Source: Myxococcota bacterium (GTDB lineage Bacteria; Myxococcota_C; UBA6777). Taken from it: a stretch of 29,484 nt of DNA. Each line of letters starts with the position of its first letter. Position 1 is the stretch's first letter. The position numbers and the translations under genes were made by a program. Location of the stretch: the NCBI GenBank assembly GCA_023150835.1, contig JAKLKB010000119.1, positions 1 through 29,484 of the forward strand, in the 5' to 3' direction. The notes beneath the pieces were generated by a model. The model saw only the letters and a list, made by a program, of their open reading frames with translations. It was not told where the DNA came from and did not search any database. Shown here piece after piece: positions 1,753 to 29,156 of the stretch.

Positions 1753-3180
1753 TCACCGTATCGAGCCTCCCCGTAAGGCCGCAAGAACCCCCAATAAGTC
1801 TTCCAGATCACCCGCCGTCAGTTCCGAGCGCACGCCTTCCCTCGCCAATGCAGAAAGCAGCCCTTTCAAGCTGGGTGCGACCCGCCCCTCTGCCTGTTTT
1901 GCAGCACGTAGCGCGATCCCCAAGGCGCGAAGTTGCTCTTGTGTAGGAGGGGCGGCTCGCCTTCCTTGACTTGGTGGTATCTTCCCCTGCAAACGCAGCT
2001 TTACGGCCATAGCCCGCAGGATTTGGCGCTCACGCAAAGCCCCTGTCATCTCAAGAGAAGCGATCCTCTCCCCCTCCGAAAGACGTTCTCCCTGATATCC
2101 TCCCCCACCCAAAGACACTCTTTTTTCCTCGGTCTCTTCGGCCTCTTCGGTTTCTTCTTCGATCTCTTGGCCAAGAACAGCGGCGTAGGTGAGTTGAAGG
2201 CGGTTGAAAAGATCGTGCGGATCGATGATGAAAAACTCGCTTTTCCCGGGATAGAAGCGCAGTCCTCGACCAACTTCTTGGATAAAGCGGTTGCGGCTGG
2301 TGTTACGGTCTTTGGTGGCTCGACGCATACAGAGCCAGCGCAAGAACGGCAGATCCGCCCCTTCGGTCAATAGATTCACATGAACCAATGCCCCCAAGCT
2401 GCCGCGCCGCAGCGCTTCGAGCAGTCGTTTCTGTAGATCTGGTGGTTGTTCCCCGTGTATAGGGGCTGCACGGCATCCCGCTCGTGAAAGCTTTTGGGCG
2501 AACTGCGTGGCGTCTGGGATGCTCCAAGCACTGATCAGTCCGGGCAAACCACGCAACATCGGTTCGCCCAAGATCGCCTCGATGCAAGCCTCATCAAGCT
2601 GCTTTTTCTCCCGTCGGTACGGCAGGATGGAAGGCGGAACGATCACGCCGTCTGCAAGAGCTTGTTCGGCGGTGTACTCGTAAAGAAGATGATCGTAGAG
2701 GGTAAGGCGTTCTTTGTCCGTGGCGCGGTGAGGGGTCGCCGTAAAACCCAAACGCCAAGCGTTGGGCCAACTTTCCGCCCACGCTTGCATTGTGGGAGAC
2801 TCTGTGCCGTGACATTCATCGGCTATCCATGCGGTAACATCGAGCTTTTTGCGCGCAAGTGTGTGATAGAGCGTTTCCACGCTGTTGTTGCATGTCACGA
2901 TGATCGGGTGGTAGATGTCCTTTTCTTCGGCATAAAAGGCGCTGTGGCGGGTTTGTAGCTCGTGAAAGGTGCTTTGCAGTTGGCGCACGATCTGTTGCGT
3001 GGGGGCCGTGATGACGATGCGTTCGCTGCGGGAAGACAAGGGGATGCTACGCGCAACGAGAGCAAGCAAGATGCTTTTCCCACCCCCCGTCGCTGCACGT
3101 ACAAGCCCATGCGTTCGGGCCTGCCAAGCGCGCATCACGACAGGATATGCGGCGGCTTGCCAAGCCCGTAGCTTTTTCAT
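1753..3180 (-). CDS. SF2 DECH-box helicase (ResIII/DEAD-like)
   Basis: This 475-residue ATP-dependent nucleic-acid translocase is placed in superfamily 2 by its motifs: Walker A ATGGGKS at residues 30-36, motif Ia TAPTQQIV near 58, motif II DECH at 121-124, motif III GFTATPHR, and motif VI QEVGRGLRFYPGK. An acidic linker (EEETEEAEETEE) separates the helicase core from a basic, probably helical C-terminal region. The ATG at 3180 is preferred because it begins two bases after the recombinase stop codon. The open frame continues upstream, but only as a shadow of the recombinase gene. It is the last gene of the minus-strand operon. The family includes restriction-modification, UvsW/XPB-like and phage helicases. 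No nuclease or methyltransferase is nearby, so the substrate is unknown; partnership with the recombinase is an inference from coupling. Confidence 0.88.
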   Translation of the reverse strand: MKKLRAWQAAAYPVVMRAWQARTHGLVRAATGGGKSILLALVARSIPLSSRSERIVITAPTQQIVRQLQSTFHELQTRHSAFYAEEKDIYHPIIVTCNNSVETLYHTLARKKLDVTAWIADECHGTESPTMQAWAESWPNAWRLGFTATPHRATDKERLTLYDHLLYEYTAEQALADGVIVPPSILPYRREKKQLDEACIEAILGEPMLRGLPGLISAWSIPDATQFAQKLSRAGCRAAPIHGEQPPDLQKRLLEALRRGSLGALVHVNLLTEGADLPFLRWLCMRRATKDRNTSRNRFIQEVGRGLRFYPGKSEFFIIDPHDLFNRLQLTYAAVLGQEIEEETEEAEETEEKRVSLGGGGYQGERLSEGERIASLEMTGALRERQILRAMAVKLRLQGKIPPSQGRRAAPPTQEQLRALGIALRAAKQAEGRVAPSLKGLLSALAREGVRSELTAGDLEDLLGVLAALRGGSIR

Positions 3181-3182
3181 GC

Positions 3183-4127
3183 TCAAAGATCCTTGAGCGG
3201 ATTCTTGCTGAACTGTTCGTGGGTACGGATATAGCGGGTGGTGGTGCGGAGAGGGTCTTTGTGGCGGAGTTGCTGGGAAATCCGTCGGATATCCACATCG
3301 GCTTCGGCAAGACTGGTCGCCAACCCTGCCCGACAACTATGCCCCGCAAAGTCCGCAGCATTGAGACCTTGCGCCTCCGCAGCCCGTTTCACGATCCGCA
3401 CAAATGTTTTCTCGGATACATGGGCGTTTGCGTCGCGTGGTGAAGGAAACAACCATCCCGCATCTTGCGTGGCTTGGTGTTGTTCTCGGCGCTGCTTGTA
3501 CCAGTCCAACAACGCCGTAAAGTCCCGCCATTCCGTTGGGATCGCAATGGTCTCTTCTTTTCCTTCTTGGTTGGTCTTGGAGGCGGCAAGTGAGATCAAT
3601 AACCCCCGATCTTCCGATGTGATGTCAGTCAACCGAAGCGAGACCAGTTCACTCCGACGAAAGCCCGTCGCAAAACCCCATTGCAACAACGCCTGTTCCC
3701 AAGGTTCCCAAAAGCACTTCCGCAAGCCTTGGTCCAAAACCCCCAGCGTCATCGGCTTTTTGCGTATCGGCTTGTGTTTCAGTTGACGGCGCAAACCTTG
3801 TCGGAAGAGTTGAAATGACCCAGAGAACGGAGGCAGCGAAGTTTGCGCAGCTTCATACCCATGACGGATGGCGACGAGGGCTGCGTTCAGCGTGGGTAGC
3901 TTTTTCTCTTGCTCGACAAGATGTGTTAGGTACAACATCAACGCCTCTTCGGTCGGTGGTTCGGCCACTTCGTGCTGTTTTCGCCACGCTTGCCATGACT
4001 GCCACATCGAGCGATATGCGCGCTTGGTGTTGCCAGACCATGCGTTCTCAAGGATCTCCCGCGCCTTCCCGACCAGACGAACCTTGTCAGGAAGCTGATG
4101 TTGTTGGGAGATCAGAAGAGAGTTCAC
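3183..4127 (-). CDS. Tyrosine recombinase/integrase
   Basis: The 314-residue protein has the two-domain layout of phage-integrase-family recombinases. An N-terminal SAM-like core-binding domain (about 15-115, including NTKRAYRSMWQSWQAW) is followed by a catalytic domain. The catalytic set is complete: Arg157 in GFRRSEL, Lys184 in ASKTNQEG, His263 and Arg266 in GHSCRAG, His289 in LRHKD and nucleophile Tyr299 in TTRYIR. The GTG at 4127 is chosen because it overlaps the TGA of the upstream sigma-like gene (GTGA) and has GGAG eight bases before it. The helicase starts two bases after its stop. It would cut and rejoin DNA at a specific site. No att pair could be identified, so its target and whether it moves this island are unknown. 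Unlike two of its operon partners it appears intact. Confidence 0.9.
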   Translation of the reverse strand: MNSLLISQQHQLPDKVRLVGKAREILENAWSGNTKRAYRSMWQSWQAWRKQHEVAEPPTEEALMLYLTHLVEQEKKLPTLNAALVAIRHGYEAAQTSLPPFSGSFQLFRQGLRRQLKHKPIRKKPMTLGVLDQGLRKCFWEPWEQALLQWGFATGFRRSELVSLRLTDITSEDRGLLISLAASKTNQEGKEETIAIPTEWRDFTALLDWYKQRREQHQATQDAGWLFPSPRDANAHVSEKTFVRIVKRAAEAQGLNAADFAGHSCRAGLATSLAEADVDIRRISQQLRHKDPLRTTTRYIRTHEQFSKNPLKDL

Positions 4128-4717
4128 GCAACCATCTCCAAGAGGTCGAGGTTTTCGTTGAGGTGAGTTTCCACACGGGCGCGCCAAAGTCGAACACGCT
4201 CATAGACTGACGTAGCGGAAATGCCCATCACGCGAGCGATTTGGCGGTAAGTGAATCCCATCGACAACGCATCGGCGATCTTTTTATCGTCCTCGCACAG
4301 ATCAAAAACCCTTCGCAGGGATCGAGCCGCGACCTGTTTGTCCATCCGCTCAAAGTCGTCGCTTGACCCCTGATCTTCTAGAGCAGCGTGCGATTCAAGA
4401 GTCCGCGCTCTGCTCGTTGCTCGAAAGTGACCGATCACGCCGTCGCGCACGAATTTTTTGAGCCACGCGCCTTTCTTCTCGAAGCGGGCCAACATGCGAG
4501 GCCCTCGGCGCAAGAACAACTCCGTCACGCTCTGGGCCGCATCCATCGGATCGATGCCTTCATCCCACTCGCGGCAGAGTTTTGTCGAGTAAGAGAGCGC
4601 GCAGCGATGCACGACTTCGCAAAGGTATCAAAATGCCGCACGTGATCCCTCATTTGCGAGGGCTACGACTTCATGGAGCGATAGTTGTGCAAAGACTGCT
4701 CGTGTATTGCGTTTCAT
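4124..4717 (-). pseudogene. ECF-like sigma-70 factor interrupted by in-frame TGA
   Basis: An ATG at 4717 overlaps the stop of the upstream gene (ATGA). The frame runs 29 codons to TGA at 4628-4630, then continues in the same frame to the stop at 4124. Read across the TGA, the protein looks like an ECF sigma factor: SLHEVVALANEGSRAAF, the stop, then YLCEVVHRCALSYS form the usual first helix of region 2. DPMDAAQSVTELFLRR and WLKKFVRDGVIGHFRATSRAR complete region 2. ALSMGFTYRQIARVMGISA and TSVYERVRLWRARVE form the region 4 helix-turn-helix. The TGA therefore sits inside a conserved helix and probably is a nonsense mutation. Alternatives are readthrough, or restart at GTG 4612, which would give 162 residues but lacks a clear ribosome site and the first helix. 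If functional it would direct RNA polymerase or bind DNA for this island. Confidence 0.6.
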
Positions 4718-8657: not shown

Positions 8658-8679
8658 GGGCAGCCACAGGGGGCTGCCC
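8658..8679. repeat. GC-rich hairpin
   Basis: GGGCAGCC (8658-8665) pairs with GGCTGCCC (8672-8679) around a six-base loop. No T-run follows, so it is more like a REP-type hairpin than an intrinsic terminator. It lies in the 335-base gap 8547-8881 between two convergent genes, which otherwise holds only the palindromic repeat pair and no gene. Confidence 0.6.
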
Positions 8680-10413: not shown

Positions 10414-11379
10414 GTGACCCAACCAACGCACACACAGCCCACCCCGACAGACCCCCAAACGGCCCTGCGTGATATCCTCGCCTCGATCCGCCGTGTCGTC
10501 CTCACCCAAGGCGAAGGCGTCGAGCTGACCGTCCTTGGCATCCTCAGCGGAGGACACGTCTTGCTCGAAGATGTCCCCGGGGTCGGCAAAACCACACTGG
10601 CCAAAACCCTCGCCAAGTCCCTCCATCTCGACTTTGCCCGCGTTCAATTTACCCCCGATCTCCTTCCTTCCGATATCCTCGGCTCCACGATCCTCAATCC
10701 CAAAGACAGCACCTTTCATTTCCACCAAGGCCCTGTCTTCCATCACCTCCTGCTTGCCGACGAGATCAACCGCGCCTCGCCGCGTACACAATCCGCTCTT
10801 CTTGAGGCCATGAACGAACGACAAGTGACGATCGACGGCACAACGCACCCCCTCCCCTCGCCGTTTTTCGTGATCGCCACCCAAAACCCCGTCGATCACC
10901 AAGGCACTTATCCCCTTCCCGAAGCGCAACTTGACCGATTCATCGTGCGGATCAGCCTCGGCTACCCAAGCAAAGAAGACGAGATCAAGATGCTCTTTGA
11001 TCGCCAAACCACCGATCCGCTCGATCATATCCAGCCTGTGATGGGCCTCGACACCTTGCGCGCTCTCCAACAACAAGTCCGAGATATCCGAGTGGAACGC
11101 GATGTGGCTCTTTACCTTCATGCCATCGTCGAGGCCACACGGCAACATACAGAACTGGCCCTCGGAGCCAGTCCACGCGCCACCCTCTCCTTTTTTCGCG
11201 CCATCCAAGCCCGCGCTTTCTTACAAGATCGCTCCTACGCCAGTCCCGATGATATCCAAGCGCTCACGATCCCCGTACTCGCTCACCGCATCCGCCTCTC
11301 CAACCAAGCCCGCTATGGCGGCAAAACCACCGCACACGTCCTGCAATCGATCCTCGCAACACAAAAGGTTCCCACATGA
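10414..11379 (+). CDS. MoxR-family AAA+ ATPase
   Basis: This chaperone-like ATPase of the MoxR class is about 321 residues long. Walker A is EDVPGVGKTTLAK near 52-64. The family-specific RVQFTPDLLPSDILG follows, then Walker B LLLADEINRA near 110-120 and the sensor and Arg-finger region ATQNPVDHQGTYPLPEAQLD. The C-terminal lid includes GASPRATLSF. GTG 10414 is preferred over TTG 10384 because GGAG lies ten bases upstream. Its stop overlaps the start of the DUF58 gene (ATGA), indicating coupling. MoxR proteins commonly work with DUF58 or VWA partners to assemble or activate membrane or periplasmic complexes, and the downstream order here is the classic MoxR-DUF58-transglutaminase one. The client is not known. 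Confidence 0.93.
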   Translation: MTQPTHTQPTPTDPQTALRDILASIRRVVLTQGEGVELTVLGILSGGHVLLEDVPGVGKTTLAKTLAKSLHLDFARVQFTPDLLPSDILGSTILNPKDSTFHFHQGPVFHHLLLADEINRASPRTQSALLEAMNERQVTIDGTTHPLPSPFFVIATQNPVDHQGTYPLPEAQLDRFIVRISLGYPSKEDEIKMLFDRQTTDPLDHIQPVMGLDTLRALQQQVRDIRVERDVALYLHAIVEATRQHTELALGASPRATLSFFRAIQARAFLQDRSYASPDDIQALTIPVLAHRIRLSNQARYGGKTTAHVLQSILATQKVPT

Positions 11380-12653
11380 ATCTTTCAAAACTCAACTACA
11401 TCCTTATTCCTAAAAAACCCGAAGAGCTTGAGCGGATTCGGCGTGCTTGGTATGCGAGATATGCTTATGCGTTGGTCTACTTCTTTTTTATGTTTTCGAC
11501 CGAAGGCCAATGGCTGTTGATCGGATGGGTGATGTTGTCCGCGTTGAGTATCAACGTCGAGTTCACCCAATACTACGTGATGTGGAGTGTTGTCACGGGG
11601 CTGCTTTTTGCGTCGTTGCTGTTGCGTCGGGGGCTGATCTTGCATGGGGTACAGCTTCGCTTTACAGGGCCGCAGCGTGCGACTGTCGGCGAAGAAGTCC
11701 ATCTGCTCGTCGAGATCCACAACCACAGCGAACAGCCTCATCAAGCCCTACGGATCGAACGCCCGTTTCTGCCGTGGGATGGGCGTTATCTCAATCCACG
11801 TCCGTTTGTGGAACATCTCGCACCCGACCAAAGTCAGATCTGCCCGATCAAAGCGCGTTTTGTTGCACGAGGCGAACACATCCTCGGAACAGCGAGCGTT
11901 CGCGCTCTCACGCCGCTGGGGTTTGGTCTGGGTCCGCCCGTCTACAGCGAGCCGTTGCGTTTTTTGGTGATCCCGCGTATCGCGCACGTCACCAACGTCC
12001 ATGTCGATACGGTGATGCGCTACCAACCCGGCGGGGTCGCGCTGGCCTCGATTACAGGAGAGTCGCGGGAGATTATCGGAGTTCGACCGTATCGCCCCGG
12101 GGATCTCGTCCGAGATCTTCATGCAAAAACATGGGCGCGCATCGGGATTCCTGTCGTACGAGAGTACCAGCAAGAGTATTTTACACGCATCGGGATCGTG
12201 ATCGATACCGACGGTGGGGAAGCCGATGATCCGATCTTTGAGGCGATGCTCTCGCTGGCTGCGGGGATTACGGCCCAACTTAGCCGAGGAGAAGTGCTTT
12301 TGGATATCCTCGTGATCGGCGACGACATCCACCAACTCACTCTCGGGCGAAGTCTAGGCTTTCTCGAACAAGCCCTCGATCTGCTTGCGTGTGTCGTCCC
12401 CAAACAAGGCTTCCAAGCCCAAACTCTCCAAGCCCAACTGATGGGGCACCTCGATCGCCTGTCTTGTATGCTGTTTCTCTCGCTACGATGGGATCCATCG
12501 CGTCAACACTTTACCGACTGGATCGAGCAACAAGGCACACGCTGTCGCAAGATCCTCGTGGCGGGAGAGACGCCTCTCCTTGATGCGCAAGCCGCCGGCG
12601 CAACGCTTGTTCAAGCCAAGGATATCCAGCAAAATCGGGAGATCGCTGTATGA
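11376..12653 (+). CDS. DUF58 domain membrane protein
   Basis: The 425-residue protein has two adjacent hydrophobic segments near the N-terminus (about 27-45 and 48-80), then a soluble beta-rich region, then the DUF58 signature GVRPYRPGDLVRDLHAKTWAR around residues 235-255. The usual form of this motif has His-Trp-Lys; here the sequence reads LHAKTWAR, so the Trp is displaced. The segment IGIVIDTDGGEADD resembles the start of the VWA-like fold often found in these proteins, with an incomplete metal site. It overlaps both neighbours by ATGA junctions, so MoxR, DUF58 and transglutaminase are probably made in fixed proportion. It is likely an inner-membrane partner of the ATPase. Confidence 0.9.
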   Translation: MNLSKLNYILIPKKPEELERIRRAWYARYAYALVYFFFMFSTEGQWLLIGWVMLSALSINVEFTQYYVMWSVVTGLLFASLLLRRGLILHGVQLRFTGPQRATVGEEVHLLVEIHNHSEQPHQALRIERPFLPWDGRYLNPRPFVEHLAPDQSQICPIKARFVARGEHILGTASVRALTPLGFGLGPPVYSEPLRFLVIPRIAHVTNVHVDTVMRYQPGGVALASITGESREIIGVRPYRPGDLVRDLHAKTWARIGIPVVREYQQEYFTRIGIVIDTDGGEADDPIFEAMLSLAAGITAQLSRGEVLLDILVIGDDIHQLTLGRSLGFLEQALDLLACVVPKQGFQAQTLQAQLMGHLDRLSCMLFLSLRWDPSRQHFTDWIEQQGTRCRKILVAGETPLLDAQAAGATLVQAKDIQQNREIAV

Positions 12654-14551
12654 GAACGAGTCTCTGGCCGCTTCGTGCGTCCATTGCCATCGCGATCCTG
12701 CTGTATGCGTTGACCTTTCGGCAATGGACGGCGACTTACGCCCTGCTGGCCTTGCTTGGACTCACGCTGCTGCCTTTTCGCCTTGAGATCGACCGTATCG
12801 GTGAGATCATCCTTGGTCTTGTCGGACTGGTTGCGGCATATATCCTGACTGTAAGCATCGGCCCTGCCCCCAAGCATCCGATCTCCGAAGGTTTTGCGTT
12901 GGTTCGTGCGTTTGCTTGTTTTTGGTCGCTTGCGTATGCCTGTTTGCGGGTACGCTTTCATGACCCCTTTGGCGGTCATGCAAGCACCTTGTTTCTTCCG
13001 CTGTTTGTGGTGACGGCCTGCGGTGGCGATCACATTGGATATCTCTATCATGCCCTTGTGACGGTCTTTAGCCTTGTGTCCCTTCTGGCCTTGGCTGCAC
13101 TTGATCCCTCTCGTCCTGCTCTCCCCAAGACCACTTCGCGGCGCAAGCTGCTCCTTGTGGTCGCTTTTTTGACAGCAACGCTGGTCGCTACGGGCTTGAC
13201 GCTCGCCATCCCCCCTGTACACCAGTGGATCACCCAGCGCGTAAGCGATTCTTTCCTCAACCGCGCACAAACCGGCTTTAGTATGTACTTTCGTGTTGGC
13301 TCTCTCTCGAATATGCTACAGTCTGAGCGCGCTGTCTTACGCGTACATGGGCGTTTCTCAGACACACTTCGATTGCGTGGCATCGTCTACAACCGCTACT
13401 TTAACAAGCATTGGAGTACGTCGCGCACCCGTTCTCCCAAAGTCTATCGCCTGCCGACTCGGCCCCTCGCGTCTTCTCTCACCGTCGAGCGGATCGCAGG
13501 CGAACGCTATCGCTACTTTGCCCCGCTCGATATCGACCATCTCTCTACACCGAGCGGCCATGTCGATATGGACGAGATGGGCCTCTTGCGCCCGCTCCAA
13601 AAAGAAATGCCCGAACGCCTAAGCTTTCAACTCACCAAGCAACGCAGCCCTGCCCTTGCACCGCCTGTCAAAGCCGATCTGCGCCTCTTCGGGGGTATAG
13701 AAAAGCGCCTACAGCCGCTGGCCTTGGCATGGACGAAAGCACAGTCCAGCTCTCTCGCCAAGATCCAAGCCCTTGTCCACAAGCTTCAATCCGAATACCG
13801 CTATTCTTTGTCCTTCGAGCGTCCACCGCACCTCGAACCGATCATCGACTTCCTCGAATACAACAAACAAGGACATTGCGAATACTTTGCATCGGCCTTG
13901 GCGCTACTCGCCCGAAGCATCGGCCTCCCTGCCCGTGTCATTGGTGGTTATCTTGTGTACGAATACAACGCCTTGGGCGGTTATTATATCGTACGCGAAA
14001 AAAACGCCCATGCTTGGGCTGAGATCTGGCTCCCGAACAAGGGCTGGCAAACCTTTGATGCGACTCCTGCTTCGGGGCTACGCTCCCACAACCGCGATCG
14101 CTCGACGTTATTTGGCGGCACCATCGACCTCCTGCGTGTTTGGCTCGACAAGGCCCAAGAATGGCTGCTCAGCCTCACCCTCACCCAAGTCCTCACGCTG
14201 ATCTTTTCCTTCATCGCCCTCTGGATCGCGATCCGCGTACTGCGTCGATTTCGCCAAAAAGCCCGATCACCAGGCGAATCAGGCCCACATTACCGCGATC
14301 CGCTCGCCACCTACCAAGATCTCCTCCGCACACTCCATCCCACCCTACCCAAACAAGAACACGAAACCATCGAACATTACGCACGCCGTCTGCGCCGCGA
14401 TGAATATCCCCCCCATGTCCATCAGGCCGCACAACTGCTTCTTGATTACGCAGCATTGCGCTACGGCACCCTTGGCAGCGAAGAAGAACTTCAACAGCGC
14501 ATCCAACAATGGCTCCAAGAACAACACATCTCTGCGCATGCTCCGCCCTAA
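12650..14551 (+). CDS. Membrane transglutaminase-like protein (DUF3488/DUF4129 type)
   Basis: The 633-residue product begins with several hydrophobic spans (about residues 5-130 and 165-190), continues with a periplasmic-type region, and has a transglutaminase core. KQGHCEYFASALALLARS gives the catalytic Cys near 410, VREKNAHAWAEIW the His near 453, and GWQTFDATPASG the Asp near 469. Another membrane span (VLTLIFSFIALWIAIRV) follows near 525, then a cytosolic DUF4129-like tail with YEDL/HYARRLR-type helices. This matches the TgpA-like architecture. The active site would face the periplasm and act as a thiol protease or acyl transferase on an unknown substrate. The start ATG overlaps the DUF58 stop. 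Confidence 0.92.
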   Translation: MRTSLWPLRASIAIAILLYALTFRQWTATYALLALLGLTLLPFRLEIDRIGEIILGLVGLVAAYILTVSIGPAPKHPISEGFALVRAFACFWSLAYACLRVRFHDPFGGHASTLFLPLFVVTACGGDHIGYLYHALVTVFSLVSLLALAALDPSRPALPKTTSRRKLLLVVAFLTATLVATGLTLAIPPVHQWITQRVSDSFLNRAQTGFSMYFRVGSLSNMLQSERAVLRVHGRFSDTLRLRGIVYNRYFNKHWSTSRTRSPKVYRLPTRPLASSLTVERIAGERYRYFAPLDIDHLSTPSGHVDMDEMGLLRPLQKEMPERLSFQLTKQRSPALAPPVKADLRLFGGIEKRLQPLALAWTKAQSSSLAKIQALVHKLQSEYRYSLSFERPPHLEPIIDFLEYNKQGHCEYFASALALLARSIGLPARVIGGYLVYEYNALGGYYIVREKNAHAWAEIWLPNKGWQTFDATPASGLRSHNRDRSTLFGGTIDLLRVWLDKAQEWLLSLTLTQVLTLIFSFIALWIAIRVLRRFRQKARSPGESGPHYRDPLATYQDLLRTLHPTLPKQEHETIEHYARRLRRDEYPPHVHQAAQLLLDYAALRYGTLGSEEELQQRIQQWLQEQHISAHAPP

Positions 14552-14601
14552 ACTGCAATCCCCCAAAAAGCCCACTCACATACGCCAAAGGAAGCCCAAA
14601 G

Positions 14602-15291
14602 ATGTCTCAGAAACCACACAACCATCCCCCCCGTCCTACAGGGCCTTTCGTCGAACAATCTCCCCAAAGCCACGACGATCCCCATCACGCCCCCCTCGAA
14701 CAAACCGTCGAGCTGCAAATCGATGCAAATCACCCACTCCACGCACGCCGAAAAGCCCACCAGTCGCCCGCCGCACCAACAGACCAAGAAACCACCGTGT
14801 TACTCTCCCGCCCCAACCTCTCCTCTCCTTCGAGTGAAGCCCTTCCTGCGGCCTCTTCAAGCGTCTCCCCTCTTCCCAAAGCCACCCCCGACGATACCAA
14901 GCCCCATCCCCTGCCCCACCGCGTCCAACCCCCTCGCCACGCTTCGCCTTCCTCTGACGCCCTCCCTGCCGCTGCTTCGATATCTTCTGCGCCCACACCC
15001 ATCCCTCCGTCCGCCACTTCCGCTGCACCTTCGTCCCCGCTCGCCTCTCCATCTTCGTCAAAAAAGCAAAGCCTCTCGTCTTTTTTTACCAGAAAAGATG
15101 GACCGATGGAGATGTATTTATTGCTTGGCGGTGTCGGTCTTCTTTTTTTTCTGGTGTTTGTGTGGGCATTTTTTATTTTGGTTTCGATGCGTTCCTCTTC
15201 CCCCCAAAAACCGACCGATCCGCGACCCACCCCCGCGCAGCAAACACAGCCCGCCAAGATCTCACCTGCCAAAACCTCGCCCTCTAAGTGA
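14602..15291 (+). CDS. Proline-rich single-span membrane protein
   Basis: No family is recognised. About 165 residues of low-complexity Pro/Ser/Ala sequence precede one strong transmembrane helix (MYLLLGGVGLLFFLVFVWAF, from about residue 170) and a short Pro/Lys-rich tail. The ATG at 14602 has AAGGAAG about eight bases upstream; the frame is open upstream but only as a shadow of the transglutaminase end. It starts 50 bases after that gene and ends 74 bases before the GrpE-like gene, so it belongs to the same operon. Disordered Pro-rich arms often bridge partners or span the periplasm. Topology is unclear, but the strongly basic SSKKQS/RKDG segment just before the helix suggests a cytosolic N-terminus. 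Confidence 0.7.
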   Translation: MSQKPHNHPPRPTGPFVEQSPQSHDDPHHAPLEQTVELQIDANHPLHARRKAHQSPAAPTDQETTVLLSRPNLSSPSSEALPAASSSVSPLPKATPDDTKPHPLPHRVQPPRHASPSSDALPAAASISSAPTPIPPSATSAAPSSPLASPSSSKKQSLSSFFTRKDGPMEMYLLLGGVGLLFFLVFVWAFFILVSMRSSSPQKPTDPRPTPAQQTQPAKISPAKTSPSK

Positions 15292-15365
15292 CTTCTTCTC
15301 CAAAGACTCGGTGCATACGCACGGAACGAATCACCCCCGACAAAAAGAGCGATGGAGACGACAAG

Positions 15366-16019
15366 ATGATCGATATGCTTCCTTACTTGCCTTGGCTGTT
15401 CTCGTTACTTTCGTTTGGTTTTGCAATAGGCATCGGATGGTTTCAAGGCCGTAAGTATCGGCGCATGGAGCGTCAGCATCAAGAAGTCTTGCTCGCGCAG
15501 AAGCAACAGCATGAGGCACAACTTGACGCATTCCGACGACAGCATACCGAAACACTGCTTGCGCAACAAGACGAACACCAAGCCATCTTGCGACGCCGAG
15601 AACGCGAGGCGGAAAAGCAGCGCGAACGAGCCGTGATTCCGCTACTTTTGGCCTTGCTCCCCGCACTTGATGCACTCGAACAAGCCCAACGAAGCACACA
15701 CCAGCCCGACACATCACTGCACGATCTCGCCCAAGGAATCGAGATCTTGCAGCACACCTTCCTCCAAGCCCTCGCCCAGCAAGAGATCCACCCGATCCAG
15801 CCAACGAGCGGAGCCCTCTTCGATCCCGAAGAACATGAATCCATCGGGCTGATCGACGCTCCCAACCTACCGCTCAACAGCGTCGCACAGACCTTGCGCA
15901 CAGGGTGGCGGCTGCGCGATACGCTGCTGCGACCTGCGACCGTTCAAACCACCCCGCCCGCTGCTTCTTTCGTCCCTGCCGAACCTTCCTCAACAGCACA
16001 AGGAGATACACCAAACTAA
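15366..16019 (+). CDS. Membrane-anchored GrpE-like protein
   Basis: The 217-residue protein begins with one transmembrane helix (LPYLPWLFSLLSFGFAIGIG, about 5-26). A long Gln/Glu/Arg-rich coiled coil (about 30-85) follows, then a region matching the GrpE core: VIPLLLALLPALDALEQAQ, LAQGIEILQHTFLQAL, and GALFDPEEHESIGLI with TLRTGWRLRDTLLRPATV. The last part corresponds to the GrpE beta-domain that opens the Hsp70 nucleotide site. Canonical GrpE is soluble, so membrane anchoring is unusual. ATG 15366 is favoured over GTG 15288 because GGAG lies eight bases upstream. It closes the MoxR operon, suggesting recruitment of a DnaK-type chaperone to a membrane process. No DnaK or DnaJ gene is in the window. 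Its stop codon overlaps that of the convergent TPR gene by three bases. Confidence 0.8.
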   Translation: MIDMLPYLPWLFSLLSFGFAIGIGWFQGRKYRRMERQHQEVLLAQKQQHEAQLDAFRRQHTETLLAQQDEHQAILRRREREAEKQRERAVIPLLLALLPALDALEQAQRSTHQPDTSLHDLAQGIEILQHTFLQALAQQEIHPIQPTSGALFDPEEHESIGLIDAPNLPLNSVAQTLRTGWRLRDTLLRPATVQTTPPAASFVPAEPSSTAQGDTPN

Positions 16020-27329: not shown

Positions 27330-29156
27330 TCAGGCACGCGGCAACATCTCTTCCAAGGTAGAACAAAACAGCCGCAGCGTTTCGCCGAGATCGGCTTGGG
27401 TATCGCGCTGTGCGCGAGGGGACATCATCTGCGCGAGGGCTTTGAGCATCCGCAGCGCGTGTGTGCGTTGCGGGAGAGGTAGCGCGTGGATGGATTGGAT
27501 CAAAGAAGAATTGAGATTGATATAGAGACGATGGAGATGTTCCTCTTTGACCTTTTGCGTAAACTTGCGTGCGAGAGAAAGCACCCCCGAAGCGATCCGT
27601 TTGTCGGCTTCGTCGTCTTCGATCCTGCGTTTCAGGGCGACTTCTTGGTTGGTGACAAGCAACACGGGAAGACTGTCTGGCAAAAAGCGCGCAAAACAGA
27701 GCGTGGTGTCGTTTTGTGCGAGTACTTCGGCAAAGATCGCCCGCATCGTCGCCGAGACTTCTTCGACCGCAAAGACGGCTTCTTCGCCGCGCCGTGTACC
27801 AAGCTCGATCAAGTCCAATCCACGGACTTCGCAAACGCGCTGCACAAAAGGCCGCGCCGCATAACGCCACCCTTGCACAATAGGCCGCGACAAAGCCCGA
27901 AACAGGACTTCTTCGTAGCCTGCTTGTTGGCTTGTCGAGACGTAGATCTTGCCTTGGCTGTGTTTGCGCAGCATCGGCAAGGTCATCTCGCCTTCGGATG
28001 TAGGGAGAGTCAGCTCGTCTTGCAACAGCAGAAACAGGCGCTCATCACACAGCGCCGCCCCAAGCAGCGCTTCGTTATGCCGCATCAAGATCCGCCGCCA
28101 TGCCTCGGGTTCACGGGTCGCGATCTGCGACAGCCCCGCGATCAACGTCTCTTGGATCATCGCCGCAAGCTTTTCAAAGACTTCGTCTTCTTGGATATCT
28201 TCGCGGCTCGCTGTCGGCGTCAACTGGTTGCACTCGATCACTCCACCCACAAACCCCGCCCAACGCGGCAAAAGCTCACGCGAATCTTCTGTGATCAACA
28301 TCCCCCGAACAAACAACACCACACGCCGATTGTCCGAACTTCCGTAGGTGGCCCCATCTTGTACCCACAACACCCCATGCGCAACCGCCTCCTCTCGGGG
28401 GGAAACCGAGATCGTCGCAAGCGGCTCAAAATTCGGCTCAAAACGCTTGGCAAATTCCATCTCCAGACGCTTGACACGAAGCGCCGAGAGCGTGTCCTCT
28501 TCCAATCGCCACGGCGGACGCACACCATTGATCCGATGCGGCGCGTGGATCGGGATCGTCAGCAAACAACAATAACGCTCCAACACAACAGCCACCGCCT
28601 CAAGCCGCGCCAACGTCGCAAAACGCGGACGCAAGTGCAGCACAACACGCGTCCCCACCTCTTCGTTCTCGGCGGCCTCAACGGTATAACGCTGCCCGTT
28701 GCGACTGGAAAAATGCCACGTCCGATCAGGCGTCTGAAACGATGTCGTCCAGACATCCACCCGTTCCGCGATCACATACGCCGACAAAAAGCCCAACCCA
28801 AACGCACCGATCAACTCTTCGCGCTGGCTTCCTTGGCGAAGTAAGCGCGTGTACCCCGCTCCCACCGTCGCAAGATAACGGTGGATCTCGTCTTCCGTCA
28901 GACCCGCCCCACGATCTTGGATCGTCAAACAAGACCGTGTGGTCGAAGCACTCACATCGATCCGTAAAGCTTCTTCTTGGCACGCAGGATCTTCGATCTT
29001 GCGCCGAAAACACGAATCATGGGCATTTTGAATCAATTCTCGCACCGCCACAAACGGCGTCGAATACAGATTCTTGCCCAAAACCTCCATCAGGCCGTCC
29101 ATATCCACGTTGGCGCGTTGCATCTGCGCAGATGCCGATAGTTCGCGTTCTGTCAT
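27330..29156 (-). CDS. htpG: Hsp90/HtpG-family chaperone
   Basis: The 608-residue protein has the GHKL ATPase domain of Hsp90. LYSTPFVAVRELIQNAHDSC provides the Glu and Asn for ATP and Mg, IQDRGAGLTEDEI the Asp/Gly motif, and GAFGLGFLSAYVIAERVDV the lid glycine motif. The middle domain includes LFVRGMLITEDSRELLPRWAGFVGGVIEC with the Arg and ECNQLTPTASRE segment typical of HtpG. Compared with classical HtpG (about 620-640 residues) it is slightly shorter and divergent, with a less typical C-terminal dimerisation region. ATG 29156 has GGAGGG about eight bases upstream. It is monocistronic and convergent with the SDR gene. It may be a second, specialised Hsp90 in this genome rather than the housekeeping copy. 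Confidence 0.9.
   Translation of the reverse strand: MTERELSASAQMQRANVDMDGLMEVLGKNLYSTPFVAVRELIQNAHDSCFRRKIEDPACQEEALRIDVSASTTRSCLTIQDRGAGLTEDEIHRYLATVGAGYTRLLRQGSQREELIGAFGLGFLSAYVIAERVDVWTTSFQTPDRTWHFSSRNGQRYTVEAAENEEVGTRVVLHLRPRFATLARLEAVAVVLERYCCLLTIPIHAPHRINGVRPPWRLEEDTLSALRVKRLEMEFAKRFEPNFEPLATISVSPREEAVAHGVLWVQDGATYGSSDNRRVVLFVRGMLITEDSRELLPRWAGFVGGVIECNQLTPTASREDIQEDEVFEKLAAMIQETLIAGLSQIATREPEAWRRILMRHNEALLGAALCDERLFLLLQDELTLPTSEGEMTLPMLRKHSQGKIYVSTSQQAGYEEVLFRALSRPIVQGWRYAARPFVQRVCEVRGLDLIELGTRRGEEAVFAVEEVSATMRAIFAEVLAQNDTTLCFARFLPDSLPVLLVTNQEVALKRRIEDDEADKRIASGVLSLARKFTQKVKEEHLHRLYINLNSSLIQSIHALPLPQRTHALRMLKALAQMMSPRAQRDTQADLGETLRLFCSTLEEMLPRA

Follow-up and report, generated by a model that had tools for sequence, protein, structure and literature searches.

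Does a GrpE protein that carries its own membrane anchor, and whose gene lies downstream of a MoxR–DUF58–transglutaminase operon, work together with the products of that operon? Positions 10414–16019 of the window, the 29,484-nucleotide stretch of DNA analyzed here (contig C59 of a 7.56-Mb genome, G000), raise this question. They contain five real open reading frames, all on the plus strand, which a first-pass annotation had read as a chaperone-assisted envelope assembly machine. For comparison, we used a sister genome from the same genus (G001) and three genomes that represent the remaining two genera of the clade (G002, G003, and G004); with G000, these represent all species of the order, class, and phylum in the genome collection.

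The first gene (10414–11379) encodes a MoxR-type AAA+ ATPase (Pfam AAA_3, 1.1e-65; AAA_lid_2, 6e-22), for which TTG 10384 is an alternative start, and it has orthologs in the corresponding loci of G002 (L041) and G004 (L042). Overlaps of 4 nt join it to the gene for a DUF58-type membrane protein (11376–12653) and join the latter to the gene for a TgpA-like membrane transglutaminase (12650–14551; Transglut_core, 1.7e-23) with a C-terminal DUF4129 region. The fourth gene (14602–15291) encodes a Pro/Ser-rich membrane protein that matches no Pfam family and has a single strong hydropathy peak, and thus one predicted helix, near its C-terminus (residues 209–227 of the long ORF that begins at 14509); ATG 14602 is a more likely start than position 14509. 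The fifth gene (15366–16019) encodes a GrpE paralog of 217 amino acids, in which a predicted membrane anchor (residues 8–26; positions 15387–15443) is followed by a helix/coil region and the GrpE core. Translation probably begins at ATG 15366, downstream of the GGAG at 15353 in a likely ribosome-binding site read in the sequence (GGAGAC, 15353–15358), which leaves a gap of 74 nt after the Pro-rich gene. GTG 15288 was rejected as the start, as the sister genome shares neither this codon nor the 26-residue extension that it would add. Across the operon, no signal for a promoter or terminator rose above chance. The left end of the window contains a minus-strand gene (3183–4187) for a phage-integrase-type recombinase, next to a helicase gene (1753–3336).

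Multiple observations support the assignment of the fifth protein to the GrpE family and the presence of its anchor. First, it matched Pfam GrpE (PF01025) with an E-value of 4.2e-28 and 98.5 bits, above the cut-off of 25.8, and three anchored orthologs scored within 85–106 bits. Second, sequence alignments to the GrpE proteins of E. coli (PDB 1dkg), Geobacillus (4ani), and Thermus (3a6m) spanned the full coil and the whole β-domain, over which the proteins are homologous and have most core residues in common; by comparison with these proteins, the window protein has an N-terminal anchor, is encoded outside a dnaK operon, and is changed at the positions of Arg73, Tyr178, Arg183, and Val192. Two structure predictions, each from an alignment of four sequences, had pLDDT values of 64–65, and the top Foldseek match of the low-confidence model was GrpE 3a6m (E 0.02); because the β-domain was modeled at a pLDDT of only about 40, below usable confidence, the argument for the fold rests on sequence. 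Third, the N-terminal hydrophobic helix of the window protein was found by two hydropathy scales (Kyte-Doolittle 1.63; octanol scale 13.3), recurs in all five orthologs, begins with the motif [LI]PW, whose Pro and Trp are invariant, and is followed by net positive charge in the window protein. The same hydropathy cut-off found no helix, anywhere in the protein, in 65 GrpE ORFs from other lineages, which were picked from the best matches and long frames in a 386-genome survey, a sampling that rare anchored GrpEs may escape. The order of GrpE core, coil, and N-terminal membrane helix noted at first pass was thus borne out.

The anchored proteins also form a family of their own. Profile scores in the clade were 297–311 bits, compared to 99 bits for the best outside match in the same survey (~380 other genomes), and outside matches never covered the anchor columns. 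In a tree of 76 GrpE sequences, the five anchored proteins formed one group (support 99/96) apart from the dnaK-linked copies, and the order within this group (G004 first, then G000 with G001 beside G002 with G003) agrees with the genus labels and so fits vertical descent. The canonical GrpE gene of the window's genome lies beside dnaK and dnaJ on contig C134; the window copy is not near either gene, and no DnaK or J-protein gene adjoined the anchored GrpE at the loci read. A contig scan for relatives returned only the sister genome and two ordinary GrpEs, scans of viral contigs added no further usable relatives, and our literature search on GrpE found no published membrane-anchored form. By these sequence criteria, the anchored GrpE is a genuine variant within a known family, specific to this lineage, present in all five genomes, and changed at its presumed interface.

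Can this variant still act as a nucleotide-exchange factor? We compared the five anchored proteins with the 65 outside GrpEs, using E. coli GrpE numbering. Gly122, Phe149, Asp/Asn150, Pro151, His154, Glu155, Gly177, Arg186, and Val190 are kept in the anchored group. By contrast, position 73 is Leu or Ile in the anchored clade and Arg or Lys in 62 of 65 outside proteins (this position falls within the coil, and the alignment there is less secure), position 178 is Trp rather than the Tyr found in 62 of 65, position 183 is Thr, Asp, Gly, or His rather than the Arg or Lys of 58 of 65, and position 192, which is Val or Ile in every outside protein, is Thr in four anchored proteins and Ile in that of G004. 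Canonical GrpEs of the same genomes have R/K73, Y/F178, R/K183, and V/I192, as in the outside set. Arg73, Tyr178, and Arg183 presumably touch DnaK in the 1dkg structure. The V192A mutation in E. coli GrpE is reported to make the β-domain unstable and to eliminate the interaction with DnaK (Gelinas et al., 2004, as cited in PMC6987454). In addition, a PROSITE-style GrpE pattern matched 50 of the 65 outside proteins but not a single one of the five anchored proteins.

These altered surface residues are compatible both with a switch to another Hsp70 partner and with a loss of exchange activity. In the latter case, the GrpE fold would be kept as a membrane-anchored dimeric coil that serves as a scaffold or adaptor, and Hsp70 nucleotide exchange would be gone. 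The replacement of near-universal residues and the failure of the pattern speak for this alternative, and the prevalence of Thr at position 192, the loss of Arg73 and Arg183, and the missing DnaK or J-protein neighbor all count against a role in exchange. However, Gly122, Phe149, His154, Gly177, Arg186, and Val190 are still present, GrpE scores remain high, and changes on one surface are also consistent with a change of partner. We consider a pseudo-exchange factor a serious rival, albeit a less likely reading than retained exchange activity.

The proposed partnership with the neighboring genes fares worse. The first three genes are indeed a known trio, adjacent and in the order MoxR–DUF58–transglutaminase in the window, L041, and L042. 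The DUF58 name is based upon a weak Pfam match (E 0.0023; 17.6 bits against a cut-off of 23.4, with orthologs likewise below it) and on the gene's place in this trio; orthologs were found in all five genomes (55–95% identity), and those in L041 and L042 adjoin the MoxR and transglutaminase genes. The DUF4129 match of the transglutaminase is weak, its orthologs contain TgpA_N, and full-length orthologs are present in G001, G002, and G004. A related arrangement exists in Pseudomonas aeruginosa, whose PA2875 and PA2874 we take to be MoxR and DUF58 proteins. There, PA2875-PA2874-tgpA is likewise a co-transcribed cluster that includes a periplasmic transglutaminase, TgpA, but the transcript contains neither a GrpE nor a Pro-rich gene, and the next gene, PA2872, is separately transcribed (PMC3507681).

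An envelope assembly machine of all five proteins would join the products of the trio to the Pro-rich protein and the anchored GrpE. Both G000 and G001 do have the five genes on one strand and in the same sequence, and every one of the proteins except MoxR is predicted to be membrane-associated. Outside this genus, however, the trio occurs without the last two genes, which are absent from L041 and L042, where unrelated genes follow the transglutaminase gene (in G003, the DUF58 gene is at a contig end, so genes downstream are out of view). The anchored GrpE genes of G002, G003, and G004 are on other contigs than the trio, among unrelated neighbors that include no MoxR, DUF58, or transglutaminase gene. 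Moreover, the Pro-rich protein was detected in one genus of three (G000 and G001) and not in the other three of the five genomes searched, although low-complexity sequence can be missed, and in G001 a 197-nt gap with a dispersed palindrome inside divides genes 4 and 5. Finally, the gene order shared by G000 and G001 is not independent evidence, because synteny between these two genomes of one genus extends over the entire block. The anchored GrpE has no conserved tie to the trio, and its adjacency to a MoxR operon is limited to one genus. We therefore regard the five-gene machine as highly improbable; the lack of conservation of genes 4 and 5 with the trio tells against that part of the first-pass annotation and leaves the anchored GrpE itself standing.

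The dispersed palindrome, GGGCAGCCACAGGGGGCTGCCC, occurs at window positions 8658–8679 and also at G001:C142:11826–11847. Counting both strands, there are 536 occurrences in G000 and 126 in G001, some of which may be counted twice as the element is a near-palindrome; its reversed control occurs nowhere. Some copies are in tandem with constant spacings of 39, 51, 64, and 110 bp, and the element is REP- or MITE-like.

On which side of the membrane does the GrpE domain lie? At least two Lys or Arg residues follow the helix in four of the five orthologs, and in G000, G001, and G002 no basic residue precedes it, a pattern that fits a cytosolic C-terminus; in G004, positive charges before the helix equal those after it, and in G003 more precede than follow unless translation starts at an internal ATG. 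A cleaved or uncleaved signal sequence that exports the GrpE domain would account for an N-terminal hydrophobic stretch and for the preceding basic residues in G004, but it is very unlikely, as the charge pattern in G000–G002 is opposite to that of signal peptides and we know of no ATP-driven Hsp70 in the periplasm.

We favor a model, to which we give a probability of roughly one-half, in which the fifth gene encodes a membrane-tethered GrpE paralog that serves, from the cytosolic side, an Hsp70 located at the inner membrane, with no conserved tie to the trio. The hydrophobic segment would anchor the protein in the inner membrane, the GrpE part would lie in the cytosol, and two subunits would pair through their helices as in other GrpEs. 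The dimer would then accelerate the release of ADP by a membrane-located Hsp70, which is more likely to be one of the DnaK paralogs than the housekeeping DnaK, and clients would be let go near the membrane or near sites of export.

Each genome encodes multiple Hsp70s, of which two are near-canonical, and has about eight or nine J-domain matches, and thus offers candidate partners for tethered co-chaperones. The Hsp70s of G000 are encoded on contigs C134, C131, C32, C179, and C86. In each of the five genomes, the gene for an Hsp70 of ~535–545 amino acids lies next to a small gene for a J-domain protein (G000:C179:487–2431, G001:C165, G002:C1:303685, G003:C213, and G004:C34), and this Hsp70 is a candidate partner of the anchored GrpE. 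G000 has four GrpE-domain proteins: the canonical and anchored copies, one with a long Pro/His-rich N-terminus, and a member of a J–GrpE–Hsp70 cluster. The cluster (L025:8079–10909, G000:C86) encodes a J-like protein with TRYSPE instead of HPD together with a GrpE that scores 55.8 bits and a 601-residue Hsp70, both of them divergent, and is apparently a self-contained second Hsp70 system. The Pro/His-rich proteins (L024:6732–8387, G000:C13; L026:6939–8663, G004:C3) have 550–575 residues with a C-terminal GrpE domain, sit on a very long tree branch, and are encoded in both genomes next to an FHA-type protein, so labeled by eye, and a conserved neighbor. On the minus strand of the window (27330–29156) is a gene for a 608-residue HtpG/Hsp90-like protein, a divergent Hsp90 with weak Pfam matches (HSP90, 37 bits; HATPase_c_3, 30 bits).

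As a rule, it is a tethered J-protein that directs an Hsp70 system to a membrane. DjlA is a membrane-anchored J-protein, and Snl1 of yeast is a membrane-anchored exchange factor with a BAG domain; both are likewise Hsp70 co-chaperones tethered to a membrane, but they belong to unrelated families and have no GrpE domain. A more specific and more doubtful version of our model is that the tethered GrpE, with its reshaped Hsp70-binding surface, and one paralogous DnaK form a private pair, giving a membrane-local Hsp70 cycle in which nucleotide exchange, and not the J-protein step, would be localized. In Myxococcus xanthus, possibly a distant relative, MxDnaK2 has a preference for membrane proteins and interacts with a GrpE of its own, MXAN_6672 (PMC11019930); by analogy, this case makes a membrane-side Hsp70 branch in this lineage plausible. 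MXAN_6672 (GrpS) is likewise an extra GrpE that serves a specialized DnaK in a bacterium with several (PMC11019930, PMC10313047). It differs from the anchored GrpE in being co-transcribed with mxdnaK2, and no anchor is mentioned in the passages on it.

Gene adjacency inside one genus can therefore mislead. A tethered GrpE, if our model is correct, would put nucleotide exchange and client release at the membrane, and, given the clade's changes at the interface, a swap of partners among GrpE and DnaK paralogs can be tested directly.
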